Source: a virus. From it: a stretch of 58,914 nucleotides of DNA. The stretch spans positions 1 through 58,914 of the IMG/VR virus record IMGVR_UViG_3300031565_014856; one strand, given 5' to 3'. The notes beneath the pieces are model-generated. The model was given only the letters and a program-made list of their open reading frames with translations, ran no database searches and was not told the DNA's origin. Positions 3,523 to 42,407 of this stretch are shown here, piece by piece; position 1 is the first letter of the stretch; every line of letters starts with the position of its first letter. A program made the position numbers and the translations under genes.

Positions 3523-4455
3523 TTAAAAAATTAAACTTCCTTCGTCATCCCACTGGCAATATAGCTTTCCGTTCTCACGTAGGATTACATATTTTAATGA
3601 ATCTAAATTATCTTTGCTCATACAGTCATCGTCAACTGCTGTTGACATTCCATCAATTGAATAAACCATGGGTCCAAAGGGAAGTCTGTAAAGTGGTGTG
3701 CCTTCACCATTGTGATGATACCCGGTTTGAAATTCCTCATCTTTTTCTCCAGCGATATATTCGTTAATGCGCCTAAACACAGTTTCGTTACATGCATTTT
3801 CATCCACCCAAATGGATTCTGGGTTATCTTCTCCTCCTCCATATAATTTTCTGAAGGTAATTTGGTCTGCGCCCAATTCTTTGCATCGTATTAGGATGTC
3901 TTCAGGATACATTTTATCATAGACATTTGTCATATTAAGGGATAAACGAAGGTTAAACCCGCTGTCTTTGATGAATCCACAGAGCTCTTCCAGCTCTCGT
4001 CTTAAATTCAAAGGGGTTCCAATTAAATCCCAATTATTTGCAGAATCATTAATATCAGAAACTGATAGCGAAATGGTATTTACGCCTAATGATTTCAACA
4101 GTTCCACATTTGGGTAACGATCATCTGTTCGTATCGTAGAACCTGGAATAGATTTTTCACAATCCATCAACATGACACCCGTTGTTTGAAGTTCAACGTT
4201 TGGAAAGGGGTGTCCCTCTTTGTTCAGGGCATCCCATAATTGGTTCAAAAACCACTTATTTTGAAGGGCCTCTCCGGTGCCTGTGATGATAAGGGTGTTT
4301 ACGTTGTTGTTAGCTGCGTATTTAATTCTTTTGCGATATGAGATCATATCGAATCTGGTTTCATACGGGTTGTTGTGCATCCTCGATACACAGAATGGGC
4401 AGTTGTTTACACATCCTTTTGTGGGAATAACTACTGATATGCTTTGGATTTTCAT
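3523..4455 (-). CDS. Radical SAM protein
   Basis: 310 aa. The canonical [4Fe-4S]/SAM motif CxxxCxxC is present as CVNNCPFC at about residues 15-22. It is followed by an ITGTGEAL segment at the position of the family's GGE (SAM-binding) motif, and by LSVSD and LRLSLNM beta strands typical of the half TIM barrel. Further Cys residues near 240-280 could bind an auxiliary cluster but are irregular. The substrate is not evident. The arrangement resembles small activating or organic-radical enzymes, but no glycyl-radical partner gene is seen nearby. It overlaps the following membrane protein gene by 4 bases. Confidence 0.87.
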   Translation of the reverse strand: MKIQSISVVIPTKGCVNNCPFCVSRMHNNPYETRFDMISYRKRIKYAANNNVNTLIITGTGEALQNKWFLNQLWDALNKEGHPFPNVELQTTGVMLMDCEKSIPGSTIRTDDRYPNVELLKSLGVNTISLSVSDINDSANNWDLIGTPLNLRRELEELCGFIKDSGFNLRLSLNMTNVYDKMYPEDILIRCKELGADQITFRKLYGGGEDNPESIWVDENACNETVFRRINEYIAGEKDEEFQTGYHHNGEGTPLYRLPFGPMVYSIDGMSTAVDDDCMSKDNLDSLKYVILRENGKLYCQWDDEGSLIF

Positions 4456-11797: not shown

Positions 11798-12091
11798 CTA
11801 TTTTTCAGGAAGCATATACCAATTAATTGTTCGTTTTTCAGTAATTGGCCCATTTTCTTCGTTTGGTATGATAATGATAGTCATCTGACCATAAAATTCT
11901 TCTTTCTTTATTTCCATTTTAATATCACCGCATTTTAAAATAACGAGACTGTCAGTCCTTTCCACTAATGGCATGCAAAAAACGAAAGACATTGCTGTAT
12001 CGTTAGTGGTGGCTTCATCTAACTTAAGCTGCCCAAATGACACTGTTGAGAAGGTTATTAAGATGGCGAGTACTATGTAAATTCTTTTCAT
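11798..12091 (-). CDS. Exported hypothetical protein, probably leaderless mRNA
   Basis: 97 aa with a signal peptide (residues 1-20, cleavage probably after SFG). The ATG lies only four bases after the TATATTTG box of the promoter at 12093-12126, so the transcript is nearly leaderless. This is one of few genes here ending in TAG. Read-through of that TAG would add about 57 codons of unremarkable sequence overlapping the next gene, so TAG acts as a stop here. Confidence 0.7.
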   Translation of the reverse strand: MKRIYIVLAILITFSTVSFGQLKLDEATTNDTAMSFVFCMPLVERTDSLVILKCGDIKMEIKKEEFYGQMTIIIIPNEENGPITEKRTINWYMLPEK

Positions 12092-12415: not shown

Positions 12416-14092
12416 TTATATCTCGATAGCGTTTATAGCATCGATGACTTCGTTGATATTTACTTCCATTTGTGGAATTTTTTCGTAAATATCTTGAGTG
12501 TATCCGTAAAGACGGAATACCTTTTGTCCACCCTTTATAGGAGCGGTTGTTGAATATCCAACAACATCAATCAAGTAAACGTATGGGGTTCCAAACTTGT
12601 TTACATACTTCTTGAAGTTGTCTTCAACTCTACTGTATCCATCTTGCATGTCAGAGATTATTACAACTCTGTCATACTGAGTGTTATTATCTGCGAACAG
12701 ATTGAAGCAAGACGCAAAGTCAGTACCGTGACTACACTTTCCGTTGTAAGAAGTAAACTTCTTCTTCAGAGTGTTAACAGAATCAGTTGGGTTCCATCCA
12801 GTAATCTTTTCAGACCATGATGCAAAGTGATAAACATCACCTCCGATGCCCTTTGCAAAAGTAGCGGCAACTAGTGCAGCCTTCTCAGCAGGGGTTGAGC
12901 TGGATCTCTTACCACCTGGAAGCGCAACGCCTCTACCAGTCATAGAACCAGATGTATCGAATACAACTGCAGTTCTACCTTCAGGAAGCAATTCCTTAAG
13001 GTTTGGAATGGAAGCTTCATACGCCTTTCCAAGCGCATCGGCAACCTTAGCCAATTGACGACCGTTGAATTCAAGAAGCATAACTTCAAGAGCAAGGTCA
13101 ATTTGGTGTGGCCATACAAGTGACTTCTTAATGAACTTAGGTTCAATAAGCAATTCACACGCAGCATCCAATAGAGGAGTATCATTAGTCTTAAGAATGT
13201 TTCTCAAGTTACGAAGCAATGCCAAGTAACCAATCTTCTTAGTCTTGATAAGTTCCGCATAGTTTTCAGTCTTTTGTTCAACGAGAACCTTTTCAGCTTC
13301 CGCCTTAGTGATTTCGCCTGACTTAACTGCTTCTGCAACCTTCTTACCAGTTTCAGTGTTCTTATCTTCAACAGTATTGAACTGCTTTAGGATTCCAAGA
13401 ACAAGAGCACGAAGTGCAGGAACTCTTACAGTTCCTTCAACAACTTCGTTGAATGTGTCCTTTTCGAACTTTGTACCAACAATAGCCTTGATGTAATCTG
13501 CAGTTGGTACATCAACGTAGCCATTCTTTTCAGTTGGAACTGGGTGAACAGCGTTAACGATGTCAACCAAACTCAAAGTGCTAGACTTCATTTGGTACTT
13601 AGCAAGTTCGTACGCATCAGCGTTTTCAATAGCGCCCTTGAAACCTCTCTTCATGGCACCTGGAATGGTATTGGTCTTATTCTTCGCACGGTAGCACGCA
13701 AGAATTTCCATCATATCGTCAAGACGATAGATTATACCACCTTCGTTGCCCTTACGGTTTCTCTTAGAGAAGAATCTCTTTCCAAGTTCATCACCAGAAA
13801 GGTGAGGCAATAGATTAACCGCTCCAACGTGGGTAACGGATCTTTGACCGAATACGCTACGTGCATAGACGAGTGCCTTTGCAGCAAAGAGCTTATCTTT
13901 CTTCGCGATGGTATCAATAACTTCGCGCAAACGAGTTTCGCGTTCTGATTCCTTTTCATAAAAGGTATTCTGGATTCCTGTGGATAGGATTCCTACGAGT
14001 TCATGTTCTGGTCTTTGGGTTTGACCGGATCCACCTTGGTGAGTAGTAGTCTTTTGAACTACAGGTTCTCTCTTTTGATTGTACTTAGACAT
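12416..14092 (-). CDS. TROVE-domain Ro60/Rsr protein with vWA domain
   Basis: 558 aa. The N-terminal two-thirds is a TROVE module: LVGILSTGIQNTFYEKESERETRL near residue 31, then helical repeats with KALVYARSVFGQRSVTHVG. The C-terminal part is a von Willebrand A domain with an intact MIDAS motif DTSGSM near residue 380 and further metal-site segments (HGTDFASCF, ISDMQDG). Bacterial Ro60 proteins form rings that bind misfolded RNA and Y RNAs and can team with exonucleases for RNA decay or rRNA maturation. Unlike its neighbours it has a strong Shine-Dalgarno (AGGAGG, 6 bases before ATG), preceded by an intrinsic terminator and two homologous small RNAs. This layout suggests high and regulated expression. 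Confidence 0.93.
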   Translation of the reverse strand: MSKYNQKREPVVQKTTTHQGGSGQTQRPEHELVGILSTGIQNTFYEKESERETRLREVIDTIAKKDKLFAAKALVYARSVFGQRSVTHVGAVNLLPHLSGDELGKRFFSKRNRKGNEGGIIYRLDDMMEILACYRAKNKTNTIPGAMKRGFKGAIENADAYELAKYQMKSSTLSLVDIVNAVHPVPTEKNGYVDVPTADYIKAIVGTKFEKDTFNEVVEGTVRVPALRALVLGILKQFNTVEDKNTETGKKVAEAVKSGEITKAEAEKVLVEQKTENYAELIKTKKIGYLALLRNLRNILKTNDTPLLDAACELLIEPKFIKKSLVWPHQIDLALEVMLLEFNGRQLAKVADALGKAYEASIPNLKELLPEGRTAVVFDTSGSMTGRGVALPGGKRSSSTPAEKAALVAATFAKGIGGDVYHFASWSEKITGWNPTDSVNTLKKKFTSYNGKCSHGTDFASCFNLFADNNTQYDRVVIISDMQDGYSRVEDNFKKYVNKFGTPYVYLIDVVGYSTTAPIKGGQKVFRLYGYTQDIYEKIPQMEVNINEVIDAINAIEI

Positions 14093-16002: not shown

Positions 16003-16019
16003 TCACATCCTTCTGGTCG

Positions 16020-16093
16020 CGATCCCAGCGGGACTCGAACCCGCGACGCTTGCTTTTAGAGAGCAACGCTCTGACCAACTGAGCTATGGGACC
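16020..16093 (-). tRNA. Suppressor tRNA, anticodon CTA (reads TAG)
   Basis: A canonical cloverleaf on the minus strand: acceptor GGTCCCA/TGGGATC, D-stem GCTC/GAGC, anticodon stem TTGCT/AGCAA, loop CTCTAAA with U33 and purine 37, and T-arm GCGGG TTCGAGT CCCGC. The anticodon is CTA, which pairs with the amber codon TAG. A gene with an in-frame TAG at codon 5 lies at 16652-16984. The charging amino acid cannot be read from the sequence; Gln is the common choice in recoding Bacteroidota phages. Confidence 0.88.
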
Positions 16094-16114
16094 ATAGGGG
16101 CCGAAGCCCCATTT

Positions 16115-16423
16115 TTATGATCTATACTTTTTAAGGATTTCCTCAAGAGAAGTTTCGAAATGAGACTTATCATATTCAGTTTCGAATTTTCCGCTATCAA
16201 TCTCTGACAGTTCTCTTCCTCTTAAAATCGCATAAGCTGCGTACATCACTCTTAATTTTTGGCGATTATGAAAGTGATTCATTGTCGCTTCCCAAGGTTC
16301 CATCGTTCTGGTTCCCGAAAACCTTACGGTTTTTCTTTGGTTTCTTAATTCTTTCTGCTCTGCAGCTAACACTCGGATATCTTCCTTTAATTGTTTTACG
16401 TTTACTTTTTCTATTGTTTCCAT
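16115..16423 (-). CDS. Basic helical hypothetical protein
   Basis: 102 aa, mostly charged helix with many Lys, Arg and Glu residues, WEATMNHFHNRQK in the middle. It could bind nucleic acid but no motif shows it. It starts 100 bases from the next small gene. Confidence 0.7.
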   Translation of the reverse strand: METIEKVNVKQLKEDIRVLAAEQKELRNQRKTVRFSGTRTMEPWEATMNHFHNRQKLRVMYAAYAILRGRELSEIDSGKFETEYDKSHFETSLEEILKKYRS

Positions 16424-16524
16424 GATTTTTCTTATTTTATTTATGAATTTTAATTACTTACTATGAAAAGTGATTACTTTTCGTCTAAAAATATGAAAAA
16501 TCATTATGGCGGCCGTATGTGTAT
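16424..16524. other. Short intergenic region with an inverted repeat
   Basis: No ORF. Contains GAAAAGTGATTACTTTTC, a 7-bp inverted repeat with a 4-base loop, and an isolated GC-rich GGCGGCCG. Confidence 0.4.
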
Positions 16525-16650
16525 CTAGGTTTCTTTCATGGTTTCTTTCTTTTTTAAAATATAAATTATTCCATTCTTTTTTGAGACTGTATATCCAAAA
16601 ATATTTAAAACTTCTTCCCAGGTTGGATTTTTATTTTCAGATTTTTCCAT
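16525..16650 (-). CDS. 41-residue protein ending in TAG
   Basis: 41 codons from ATG at 16650 to TAG. The product has a compact N-terminal motif (NPTWEEVLNIFGYTV) and a basic tail. It starts two bases after the PTH2-like gene's stop, so it is cotranscribed with it. If the TAG were suppressed only six codons would be added before TAA. Confidence 0.55.
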   Translation of the reverse strand: MEKSENKNPTWEEVLNIFGYTVSKKNGIIYILKKKETMKET

Positions 16651-16651
16651 T

Positions 16652-16984
16652 TTAATTTAATGTTAACGGTAAATGTGCACAAAGTTTTCGAGCTTTATCC
16701 GTCGGTTCCAACGCAATCGCCGTAACCTGGTTCCCTATATCAGGTTCCTTAAAAACTGAATAGTCTAAACCACGCATCTGCGCCTTTTTTAATAATTTGA
16801 GGAGTGATTGTTCGTCCGGAACGGACAAGAAAACTAAATACTTTGATTCTGTATTCCATTTTGTAGCAATTTCTGGGTGCTCATGTTGAAACTCAATTGC
16901 CGCGTGTGCTGATTGAACAGCTTGGTAACCCGGAGATATGTCTCGACGGGTGATAACGATTAATTTGCTCTAAGTGTCTTTCAT
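16652..16984 (-). CDS. PTH2-family protein with in-frame TAG at codon 5
   Basis: 110 codons from ATG at 16984 to TAA at 16652, interrupted only by TAG at 16970-16972. After MKDT-TAG the protein reads SKLIVITRRDISPGYQAVQ, then SAHAAIEFQHEHPE, and later FLSVPDEQSLLKLL and TAIALEPTDK. This follows peptidyl-tRNA hydrolase II from its first strand onward. No ATG lies between the TAG and the conserved core, so the product needs either read-through by the CTA tRNA at 16020 or a non-ATG start. The enzyme recycles peptidyl-tRNA. Confidence 0.78.
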
Positions 16985-18649: not shown

Positions 18650-18731
18650 TAGCTCCCAAGGGAATCGAACCCTTACTCCCAAAAGAACTGGATTTTGAAT
18701 CCAGCGCGTCTACCTATTCCGCCAGGGAGCC
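18650..18731 (-). tRNA. tRNA-Leu (CAA)
   Basis: Class II tRNA. Anticodon stem CTGGA/TCCAG, loop TTCAAAA, and T-loop TTCGATT. The first acceptor pair is G-U. The upstream protein gene ends (TAG) inside its first 18 bases. Confidence 0.92.
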
Positions 18732-41144: not shown

Positions 41145-41527
41145 TAGTCGTCTGCGTTAGTGTATGATTGAGCTACTTTTACTATTGACCAAACTATGGC
41201 TGCGGTTGGAACCGCAAACCATAAAATTACCCAAAAAATATTTATGAATGAAAGCATGCTTGGTGTTCCAGGTTCTATCGGAAACCAAAAGAACTTTTCG
41301 GTAAGGGCAACACCGGCCTGAATCATCCATGATAAACAAAAAACCCAGACAAAAACAGCTAAAGCCCATATCCTTGTTCTTTGTGGACGAGTGTATCCTC
41401 TTGCGAATCGTTTTAGGTCGCGTTTATATTGATGATTACCTTCATGCCCTTCTAAACGATGAATGGTCATAAAATCATCTATCATTTGTGATCTCGTCTT
41501 TGGTTTTAAAATGCTTCTGAAACTCAT
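41144..41527 (-). CDS. Multi-span membrane protein
   Basis: 127 aa. Basic, His-containing N-terminus then segments at about residues 53-75 and 93-118. First gene behind the promoter at 41545-41578. Confidence 0.65.
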   Translation of the reverse strand: MSFRSILKPKTRSQMIDDFMTIHRLEGHEGNHQYKRDLKRFARGYTRPQRTRIWALAVFVWVFCLSWMIQAGVALTEKFFWFPIEPGTPSMLSFINIFWVILWFAVPTAAIVWSIVKVAQSYTNADD

Positions 41528-41544
41528 GTTGTGTTTATTTGATT

Positions 41545-41578
41545 GCTAATATAATAAAAATACCCGAGAAATAAAATT
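41545..41578 (-). promoter_or_regulatory. Class I phage promoter
   Basis: Minus strand AATTTTATTTCTCGGG, TATTTTTATTATATTAGC, then the ATG at 41527 about 20 bases on. One of the best matches to consensus. Confidence 0.7.
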
Positions 41579-42407
41579 ATTCTGTTAAAAATTTAAACCC
41601 ACCAGAGGCCATTAATGCTTCTATCTTATTTCCGTCTAAATCTTTAAGAAATGCTGAAAGGTCCTCATTGACCCTTTGAAACGTATCTTTTATTTGCTGG
41701 CAAAAGGCTTCACGTTCTTCAGTCCATTCTACTATGGAGAATTCATTCTCGAATGACTCGACGCTCTGGTTGTGATTGGGTAGCGGAAGGAATAAATCAT
41801 CTCTCTCCTTAAAATGGCTGTTATGGTGTTGAATGGATGCTCCTGGGGATGCATATCCAATTTTTGTAATGTACCTTTTCTTTGGACCTTTTGTTTTTTC
41901 CATTATTCCTGAAAATGCCGTAGTCATTACTTCATATCCAATAAAATAATTAAACAATTGTTTAATAACCTCTCCTTTATATGCGCCATTTAGATTATTT
42001 CCCCAATGATTACGATCATGCTCAAACTTTATGAAGATCATTTTTTTCAGTGTGGCATTCTCAATGCTATGTTTTTCATTTATTTTAGAGGTGAGTTCAT
42101 GGAAATAATCCTGAAGCGTGCTTATTAGTTTGGCTGTTTGTGTCTTTTTGAATTTATAGGTGATTTCTCTATCTGCAAAACAACCACTTACTTTCTTGTT
42201 ATTCACATCGTATGATGTCTTGAATTCCGGCTCTGTGTCTGCAAGTTCTTTAAACATAAAATCTGGAATTGTCACTTTAAACTCAAGGTTTCCACGAAGC
42301 ATACTATCTTCAGGAATTGTTGAATTAACAGGCAGCTCTACCCACTCCCATTTTTTGAGATCTTTTGTAGGTATACAAAATTCCGCTTTAAATTTTTGAT
42401 ATTTCAT
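41577..42407 (-). CDS. Hypothetical protein
   Basis: 276 aa, soluble. Contains FIKFEHDRNHWGNNLNGAYKG and IGYASPGASIQHHNSHFKERDD, His-rich segments that could bind metal. No family recognised. It ends one base into the rhomboid gene. Confidence 0.65.
   Translation of the reverse strand: MKYQKFKAEFCIPTKDLKKWEWVELPVNSTIPEDSMLRGNLEFKVTIPDFMFKELADTEPEFKTSYDVNNKKVSGCFADREITYKFKKTQTAKLISTLQDYFHELTSKINEKHSIENATLKKMIFIKFEHDRNHWGNNLNGAYKGEVIKQLFNYFIGYEVMTTAFSGIMEKTKGPKKRYITKIGYASPGASIQHHNSHFKERDDLFLPLPNHNQSVESFENEFSIVEWTEEREAFCQQIKDTFQRVNEDLSAFLKDLDGNKIEALMASGGFKFLTE

Follow-up and report, generated by a model that had tools for sequence, protein, structure and literature searches.

Introduction

Several systems are known in which a stop codon within a gene is read by a dedicated tRNA. 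For instance, some phages, including crAss-like and Lak phages, use genetic code 15. Here, TAG is recoded to Gln, and a phage-encoded suppressor tRNA, with the anticodon CTA, reads TAG within genes. Late-gene timing has been proposed for this arrangement (PMC8346664, PMC10879173, PMC9523058, PMC10746230; Borges et al. 2022). In selenocysteine and pyrrolysine insertion, a dedicated tRNA similarly reads an in-frame stop in particular genes. A synthetic example is the suppressor-tRNA 'leak dampener' of Ho et al. (2020, PMC7969014), where suppressor tRNA and stop-bearing gene form a coherent feed-forward AND gate. Note that phages using the standard code often carry amber-suppressor tRNAs without known targets. 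Xanthomonas phage XacN1, a standard-code phage, has two CUA suppressor tRNAs. The authors read through 18 annotated amber stops, and could not identify target genes (PMC5852040). Separately, jumbo phages carry PTH2, a peptidyl-tRNA hydrolase, proposed to free peptidyl-tRNA after tRNA cleavage (Iyer et al. 2021, PMC7824862).

Here, we analysed a 58,914-base virus record (IMGVR_UViG_3300031565_014856, positions 1 to 58,914; 36.6% GC). We refer to this whole stretch as the window. A first-pass annotation, based on sequence alone, noted a tRNA with a CTA anticodon beside a PTH2-family gene that has TAG as its fifth codon. It proposed partial or regulated suppression by the phage's own tRNA, rather than a reassigned code. 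We find that many otherwise standard-code phages appear to lock a PTH2-like gene, and often its HD-domain partner, behind an early stop codon that a stop-reading tRNA, usually carried by the phage itself, would have to open.

Results

A gene with a predicted PTH2 fold contains an early amber codon

Our first goal was to determine whether the features in the window are as described. All lie on the minus strand, which the first-pass annotation had not specified:

16652..16984, minus strand: gene for a PTH2-fold protein (predicted), 110 aa with TAG read as a residue
16970..16972, minus strand: in-frame amber codon, codon 5 of this gene, in the low-confidence N-terminal tail before the first strand (residue 8) of the model
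16525..16650, minus strand: 41-aa ORF next to PTH2, ending in TAG, role unknown
16115..16423, minus strand: 102-aa gene of unknown function between PTH2 and the tRNA
16020..16093, minus strand: tRNA with anticodon CTA, the presumed suppressor, with no CCA encoded

The PTH2-type gene, running from 16984 to 16652, begins ATG AAA GAC ACT TAG AGC AAA TTA. The match to PF01981 starts only after the TAG (E 9.4e-12; 41.6 bits against a curated cut-off of 23), and no ATG, GTG or TTG lies between the TAG and the core. With TAG read as Gln, AlphaFold2 gave a mean pLDDT of 94.8, falling to 74 in the first ten residues. The top 13 Foldseek matches to this model are PTH2-type structures, the best being solved PTH2 proteins (1q7s, E 3.8e-8; 3erj, TM 0.79). 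However, the canonical GK lysine of PTH2, which lies near the active site, is absent. In the family profile, Y or Q is found where solved PTH2s have K. NCBIfam equivalog cut-offs were also not reached (37.6 of 126 and 36.8 of 82). Hence, we describe the protein as PTH2-like, with unproven activity. Of ten relatives scanned with PF01981, six pass the cut-off, those of GAP32 and ZPAH1 fall below, and those of Arash and ME3 give no match. Records G007 and LR756500 carry a second, longer, canonical PTH2 with no early TAG, so the gene studied here is a PTH2-like paralogue. (Names beginning with L denote loci of our collection, described below, and those beginning with G denote records.)

The tRNA was found by ARAGORN at 16019-16093, and scores 67.5 bits with Rfam model RF00005. 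It has a cloverleaf, the anticodon CTA and discriminator G. ARAGORN labels it 'Pyl', but this goes by the anticodon, and pyl genes were not sought. The tRNA is about 0.56 kb downstream of the PTH2-like gene; in the near-identical locus L008, the offset from the gene's end is 559 bases. The family of the intervening 102-aa gene is found within 6 kb of PTH2 in 27 of 102 loci, with no match in Pfam, PHROG or NCBIfam, and whether it belongs to the module is unsure. The tRNA-rich region also encodes, at 12416-14092, a 558-aa protein with a match to the TROVE domain (E 9.3e-8), a Ro60-like RNA-binding type.

We conclude that the tRNA, the PTH2-like gene and its early TAG are all present as first described.

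TAG is not a general sense codon of the window

Next, we asked whether the window is recoded. TAG is used as a stop: 11 of 83 ORFs, picked by a simple coding score, end in TAG, among them those at 16525 and 18714. An ORF at 11798 also ends in TAG. These are the three stops cited in the first-pass annotation. Two genes, at 18714 and 25391, end at TAG triplets inside the D-arm region of tRNA-Leu genes.

A count of in-frame TAGs in conserved genes had been suggested as a check. To do this, we compared ORFs of 11 records (the window, eight related contigs, and parts of two huge phages) by BLASTP, with TAG read as Gln. The window has 7,525 codons covered by alignments to other genomes. Of these, 172 are CAA, 66 are CAG, and one is TAG, the codon in the PTH2-like gene. 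In each of the 11 records the PTH2-like gene has an early TAG. The only other convincing TAG at a conserved position is in record G002 (343339-343665), where a QueE-like gene, shortened to 108 codons, has TAG at codon 4 and relatives have Gln. Other TAGs covered by alignments in G001, G002, G004 and G005 lie in short ORFs of at most 173 codons. Some are probably shadow ORFs over tRNA-rich DNA, and we did not resolve each. As a control, with a similar method, we examined two loci of Lak phages, which use TAG as Gln. These have 20 TAGs in 1,705, and 20 in 1,605, covered codons (1.2%). Pooled flanks of TAG-bearing loci hold 156 TAGs in 82,243 covered codons (0.19%), many in probable shadow ORFs. 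The pooled set of TAG-less loci was not used, because it contains duplicate loci of TAG-bearing records and the two Lak loci. Hence, use of TAG as a Gln codon throughout conserved genes, as in genetic code 15, is not seen in the window.

The early TAG is conserved in PTH2-like genes

We next sought PTH2-like genes elsewhere. Scans of viral contigs (viral_contigs) and GenBank phages gave 123 loci with 102 distinct PTH2-like sequences. One viral contig scan contributed the best 80 of 107 relatives. Of the phage records that matched in two GenBank scans (252 and 32), we read 26 regions, 20 with TAG; of 193 mycobacteriophages, four were read. A scan of genome_contigs with the PTH2 profile confirmed no relative.

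An in-frame TAG occurs at codon 2-9 in 79 of the 102 sequences: at codon 2 in 5, codon 3 in 44, codon 4 in 17, codon 5 in 10, and later in 3. Note that the query profile was built from TAG-bearing sequences, so this is not an unbiased frequency. The start is ATG in 77 and GTG in 2. The base after the TAG is A in 57, G in 20, C in 2 and T in none, so a purine follows in 77 of 79. Purines also start 67% of the next six codons. No ATG lies between TAG and core in 74 of the 79, and no ATG, GTG or TTG in 59. Conversely, 20 of 79 have a possible start after the TAG. A second TAG lies inside the PTH2 of L024 and L066.

To determine whether this exceeds chance, we examined other open segments of the same loci. 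The nearest in-frame stop upstream of the PTH2 core is TAG in 82 of 102 sequences, compared with 202 of 963 other segments. An in-frame ATG lies 1-4 codons before that TAG in 74 of 102, compared with 22 of 963. Relatedness was not corrected in this comparison, and the 963 include some HD genes with early TAGs of their own. On a tree of the cores (115 columns, weakly resolved), the trait changes at least 8 times, against 21.1 in shuffles.

Residues on both sides of the TAG are conserved against TAG-less relatives. Thus, L055 reads MA-TAG-IKEGDKL, while L054 and L056 read MATIKEGDKL and MATIKTGDKL. In TAG-less relatives the place holds Thr (L054 and L056) or, possibly, Gln (L089, MKQ).

Fifteen of the named phages whose regions we read have the TAG: Tenacibaculum pT24, Stenotrophomonas CM1 and RAS14, Xanthomonas XacN1 and XbC2, Cronobacter GAP32, Acinetobacter ME3, Serratia BF, Pectobacterium CBB, Erwinia Kaldavass, Salmonella Arash, and Mycobacterium Myrna, Phabba, Adlitam and Cane17. 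It is absent from Aeromonas avDM6, CC2 and ZPAH1, Klebsiella RaK2, and Lak-A1 and Lak-B8. The four mycobacteriophages read start-TAG-GTG, and are annotated from that GTG, so they are the weakest cases. The pT24 and GAP32 genes are annotated from starts 135 and 105 bases downstream, and BF has no CDS annotated over the gene. In XacN1, the HD-PTH2 gene ORF364 is annotated from a later ATG, and is preceded in frame by ATG AAG TAG.

In four loci, a second, shortened PTH2 5' end, early TAG included, lies upstream of the full PTH2 gene and is fused in frame to another protein (G005 41380-42162, locus L109; L036 3239-3982; L037 1930-2691; L041 2769-3791). By likeness to ORFs of G002 and G005, the fused protein is HNH-type in G005, L036 and L037; in L041 it is unidentified. 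Homing endonucleases may have invaded PTH2 repeatedly, and now sit behind the same gate.

A CTA tRNA usually accompanies the gene

A CTA tRNA lies on the same strand, within 4 kb, in 61 of the 79 TAG-bearing loci. The next commonest anticodon, GCA, is found in 19. All 69 CTA tRNAs near these genes are on the gene's strand. Seven more records have one elsewhere (L102, L099, L014, L097, XacN1, CM1/RAS14 and LR756511), giving 68 of 79. In the remaining 11, no CTA tRNA was found, and ARAGORN's intron option found no intron-bearing examples. Seven are contig fragments (L002, L007, L065, L009, L011, L093 and L103), and L085 is an odd case whose TAG is itself doubtful. However, LR745206 and G012 (60 tRNAs scanned in each) and G011 (18 scanned) are 350-635 kb. 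No model made for degenerate phage tRNAs was applied to these 11 records. In G011, the tRNA at 211818-211892 is tRNA-Leu(AAG) according to ARAGORN and Rfam. In G012, a degenerate tRNA-like element with a CTA loop (L067, about 3890-3960) lies directly before the gated PTH2, but scores 23.7 bits, below Rfam's threshold of 29.

The 67 distinct CTA tRNAs are diverse. Of 57 with a good acceptor stem, the discriminator is A in 33, G in 13 and T in 11. Hence, they are unlikely to share one amino acid. Together with the residues found in TAG-less relatives, this suggests that the amino acid does not matter.

TAG-less PTH2s of the three Aeromonas phages and RaK2 come with no CTA tRNA in the tRNA clusters scanned. 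However, 10 of 23 TAG-less PTH2s do have a CTA tRNA near, eight of them within 100 bases of the gene's end. For L012-L020, which are TAG-less, the PTH2 start overlaps an upstream gene in several loci, and a CTA tRNA lies 1-14 bases after the PTH2 stop in L012, L013, L016, L019 and L020. Hence, the link between tRNA and PTH2 must go beyond the gate. In Lak phages, a tRNA with anticodon TTA, which reads TAA, lies about 0.5 kb upstream of the ungated PTH2-like gene (L164 3368-3440; L165 3245-3317). Such a tRNA is reported in 51 of 51 Lak genomes, without evidence that TAA is recoded (PMC8346664). We considered an equivalent TAA gate. While Lak-B8 has ATG AAT ATC TAA upstream, Lak-A1 has no such sequence, and the idea is not supported.

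An HD-domain gene also contains in-frame TAG codons

In GAP32, BF, CBB, XbC2 and Kaldavass, which are Mimasvirus/Eneladusvirus-type phages, the gene after PTH2 has a conserved TAG at codon 47. Homologues in ME3 and Arash have Val at this position. Conserved sequence, with an HDCGKP motif, follows, so conserved protein sequence flanks the stop on both sides. The same HD domain is fused before PTH2 in XacN1, CM1/RAS14 and L014, and after it in pT24, L074 and L090. All six distinct fusions start with an early TAG. Stand-alone HD genes have an early TAG in L025, L055, L057, L069, L095, L097, L102 and L103, although in L102 an ATG follows the TAG directly, and in L103 the HD frame is broken. In sum, 13 of 15 stand-alone copies have an in-frame TAG. 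The HD profile matches poly(A) polymerase structures weakly (E 7e-4), and Pfam HD below its cut-off. No HD hit was found in the window. PHROGs holds the 46 residues before codon 47 as a family of its own, phrog_26054, with the rest under phrog_14850.

We also looked at single cases of other early-TAG genes as possible third targets. Most have a better ATG behind the TAG (W01 60343-60690; G002 163847-164581, an HNH endonuclease). Related C39-like peptidase genes in L045 (6754-7344), L046 (7668-8189) and L052 (6896-7459) have an ATG and early TAG upstream, but further ATGs behind it. These may be incidental or a third gated family. A scan of all phage genomes with CTA tRNAs for conserved early TAGs in any gene family, with a tree-aware test, was not made.

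Discussion

Our data suggest that the early TAG is a natural translational gate. In this view, without a suppressor tRNA, ribosomes that start at the ATG would stop after a few codons and no PTH2-like protein would be made. When a CTA tRNA is made and charged, part of the ribosomes would read the TAG and make the protein. In phages with an HD-domain partner, the same gate would control it, through a TAG of its own or one TAG at the head of a fusion. This would be a coherent feed-forward (AND) switch. Both mRNA and suppressor would be needed, so leaky or premature synthesis would be blocked. Any amino acid would do, because the codon sits in a flexible tail. The sequences themselves show conservation of the TAG, absence of another start in most cases, the tRNA beside the gene, and no general recoding in the window. 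Conversely, readthrough, its efficiency and timing, charging of the tRNA, and dependence on this tRNA are inferred; no proteomic or reporter data were available, and decoding of UAG was not assayed. The purpose is also inferred, and is probably to keep a module that handles peptidyl-tRNA or damaged tRNA off until the phage's tRNAs are present. In our judgement, it is highly likely that the TAG must be read, and likely, though less certain, that the phage's tRNA reads it and serves as a feed-forward licence. Why the proteins are gated, and what they do, is open. The comparative evidence supports the proposal of regulated suppression without a reassigned code. How widespread the arrangement is, the second gated gene and the diversity of the tRNAs were beyond what the first-pass annotation could see.

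A tentative alternative, less likely than not, accepts readthrough but sees its purpose as feedback. Output of the PTH2-like protein would rise with suppression, and either remove its by-products (peptidyl-tRNA drop-off, and ribosomes run past real stops) or damp the suppressor. A TAG at codon 2-5, where drop-off of short peptidyl-tRNAs is easiest, would make a sensitive gauge. This fits the predicted peptidyl-tRNA hydrolase fold, the proximity of PTH2 and tRNA-CTA even where the TAG is absent, and the use of TAG as a real stop in the window, so that suppression would have side effects. However, replacement of the GK lysine makes peptidyl-tRNA hydrolysis doubtful, and some genomes also carry the canonical PTH2 without early TAG.

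It is unlikely that the TAG ends a start-stop leader, or minigene, acting by stalling or peptidyl-tRNA drop-off, with PTH2 starting at a non-ATG codon after it and no need for the tRNA. Very short leaders do dominate (codon 2-4 in 66 of 79), the codon after the TAG is ATG or one base from it in 42 of 79, and the mycobacteriophages have start-TAG-GTG. However, in 37 of 79 the codon after the TAG is not near ATG. A leader need not be in frame, yet here the TAG frame is the gene frame. The HD gene has its TAG inside conserved protein in five phages, and CTA tRNAs are enriched. A non-ATG start downstream had been put forward as grounds to reject suppression; our results make it unlikely, but do not exclude it.

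Ordinary reassignment to code 15 is very unlikely. CTA tRNAs, the QueE-like gene of G002, and the second TAGs in L024 and L066 fit this, but the window's covered codons hold 1 TAG against 238 CAA/CAG with no TAG spanned by alignment, no member has CAA/CAG in place of the TAG except possibly L089, tRNA discriminators vary, and TAGs are much rarer in pooled flanks than in Lak. Chance, a mis-called start or a pseudogene is equally improbable: although some sequences have possible starts after the TAG, and annotators have used such starts or left the gene out, the TAG is conserved across many hosts, the upstream-stop control differs, and the predicted fold is intact.

A bolder reading, which we consider about as likely as not, is a widespread, natural, one-module recoding switch. 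Phages of several bacterial phyla would keep a private amber-suppressor tRNA whose conserved targets are the PTH2-like protein and its HD partner. The tRNA's amino acid would be irrelevant. Only decoding of UAG would matter, so translation itself would be the sensor. The module would switch on when phage tRNAs are present and charged, or when termination at UAG fails, and act on stalled or damaged peptidyl-tRNA, for instance after host tRNA-cleaving defence. This would explain why standard-code phages keep suppressor tRNAs at all. A role with stalled or cleaved tRNA would fit the fold, the HD partner and the suggestion of Iyer et al. for phage PTH2 (PMC7824862). Our literature searches, in which most subscription journals were not covered, listed no paper describing an amber codon in phage PTH2 or a suppressor tRNA tied to it (other work consulted: PMC6102473, PMC13037316, PMC3622015). 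The two genes offer a concrete, conserved target pair. Since it is present in phages that grow in the laboratory, the question becomes directly testable. Gene callers miss or truncate such genes, as for the BF PTH2-like gene and the HD gene divided in PHROGs.

How does this arrangement compare with those already described? In TAG-to-Gln recoded phages, as here, a phage-encoded CTA tRNA reads TAG within genes, or is inferred to. However, TAG is not a general sense codon of the window, there is one early TAG in one or two linked genes, and tRNA identity is not fixed. With respect to selenocysteine and pyrrolysine insertion, no special amino acid is implied here; neither a synthetase gene nor a cis element was looked for. 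For phage PTH2 in ribosome rescue, we saw no stop codon or suppressor link, and in XacN1 and RaK2 the genes reported as PTH (ORF295 and ORF188) are not those described here (ORF364 and ORF216). For XacN1 itself, the TAG before ORF364 was outside the annotated gene. Finally, the gate would be a natural counterpart of the engineered leak dampener. That system is synthetic, in E. coli, and usually has several stop codons, while the arrangement described here is natural, with one early codon.
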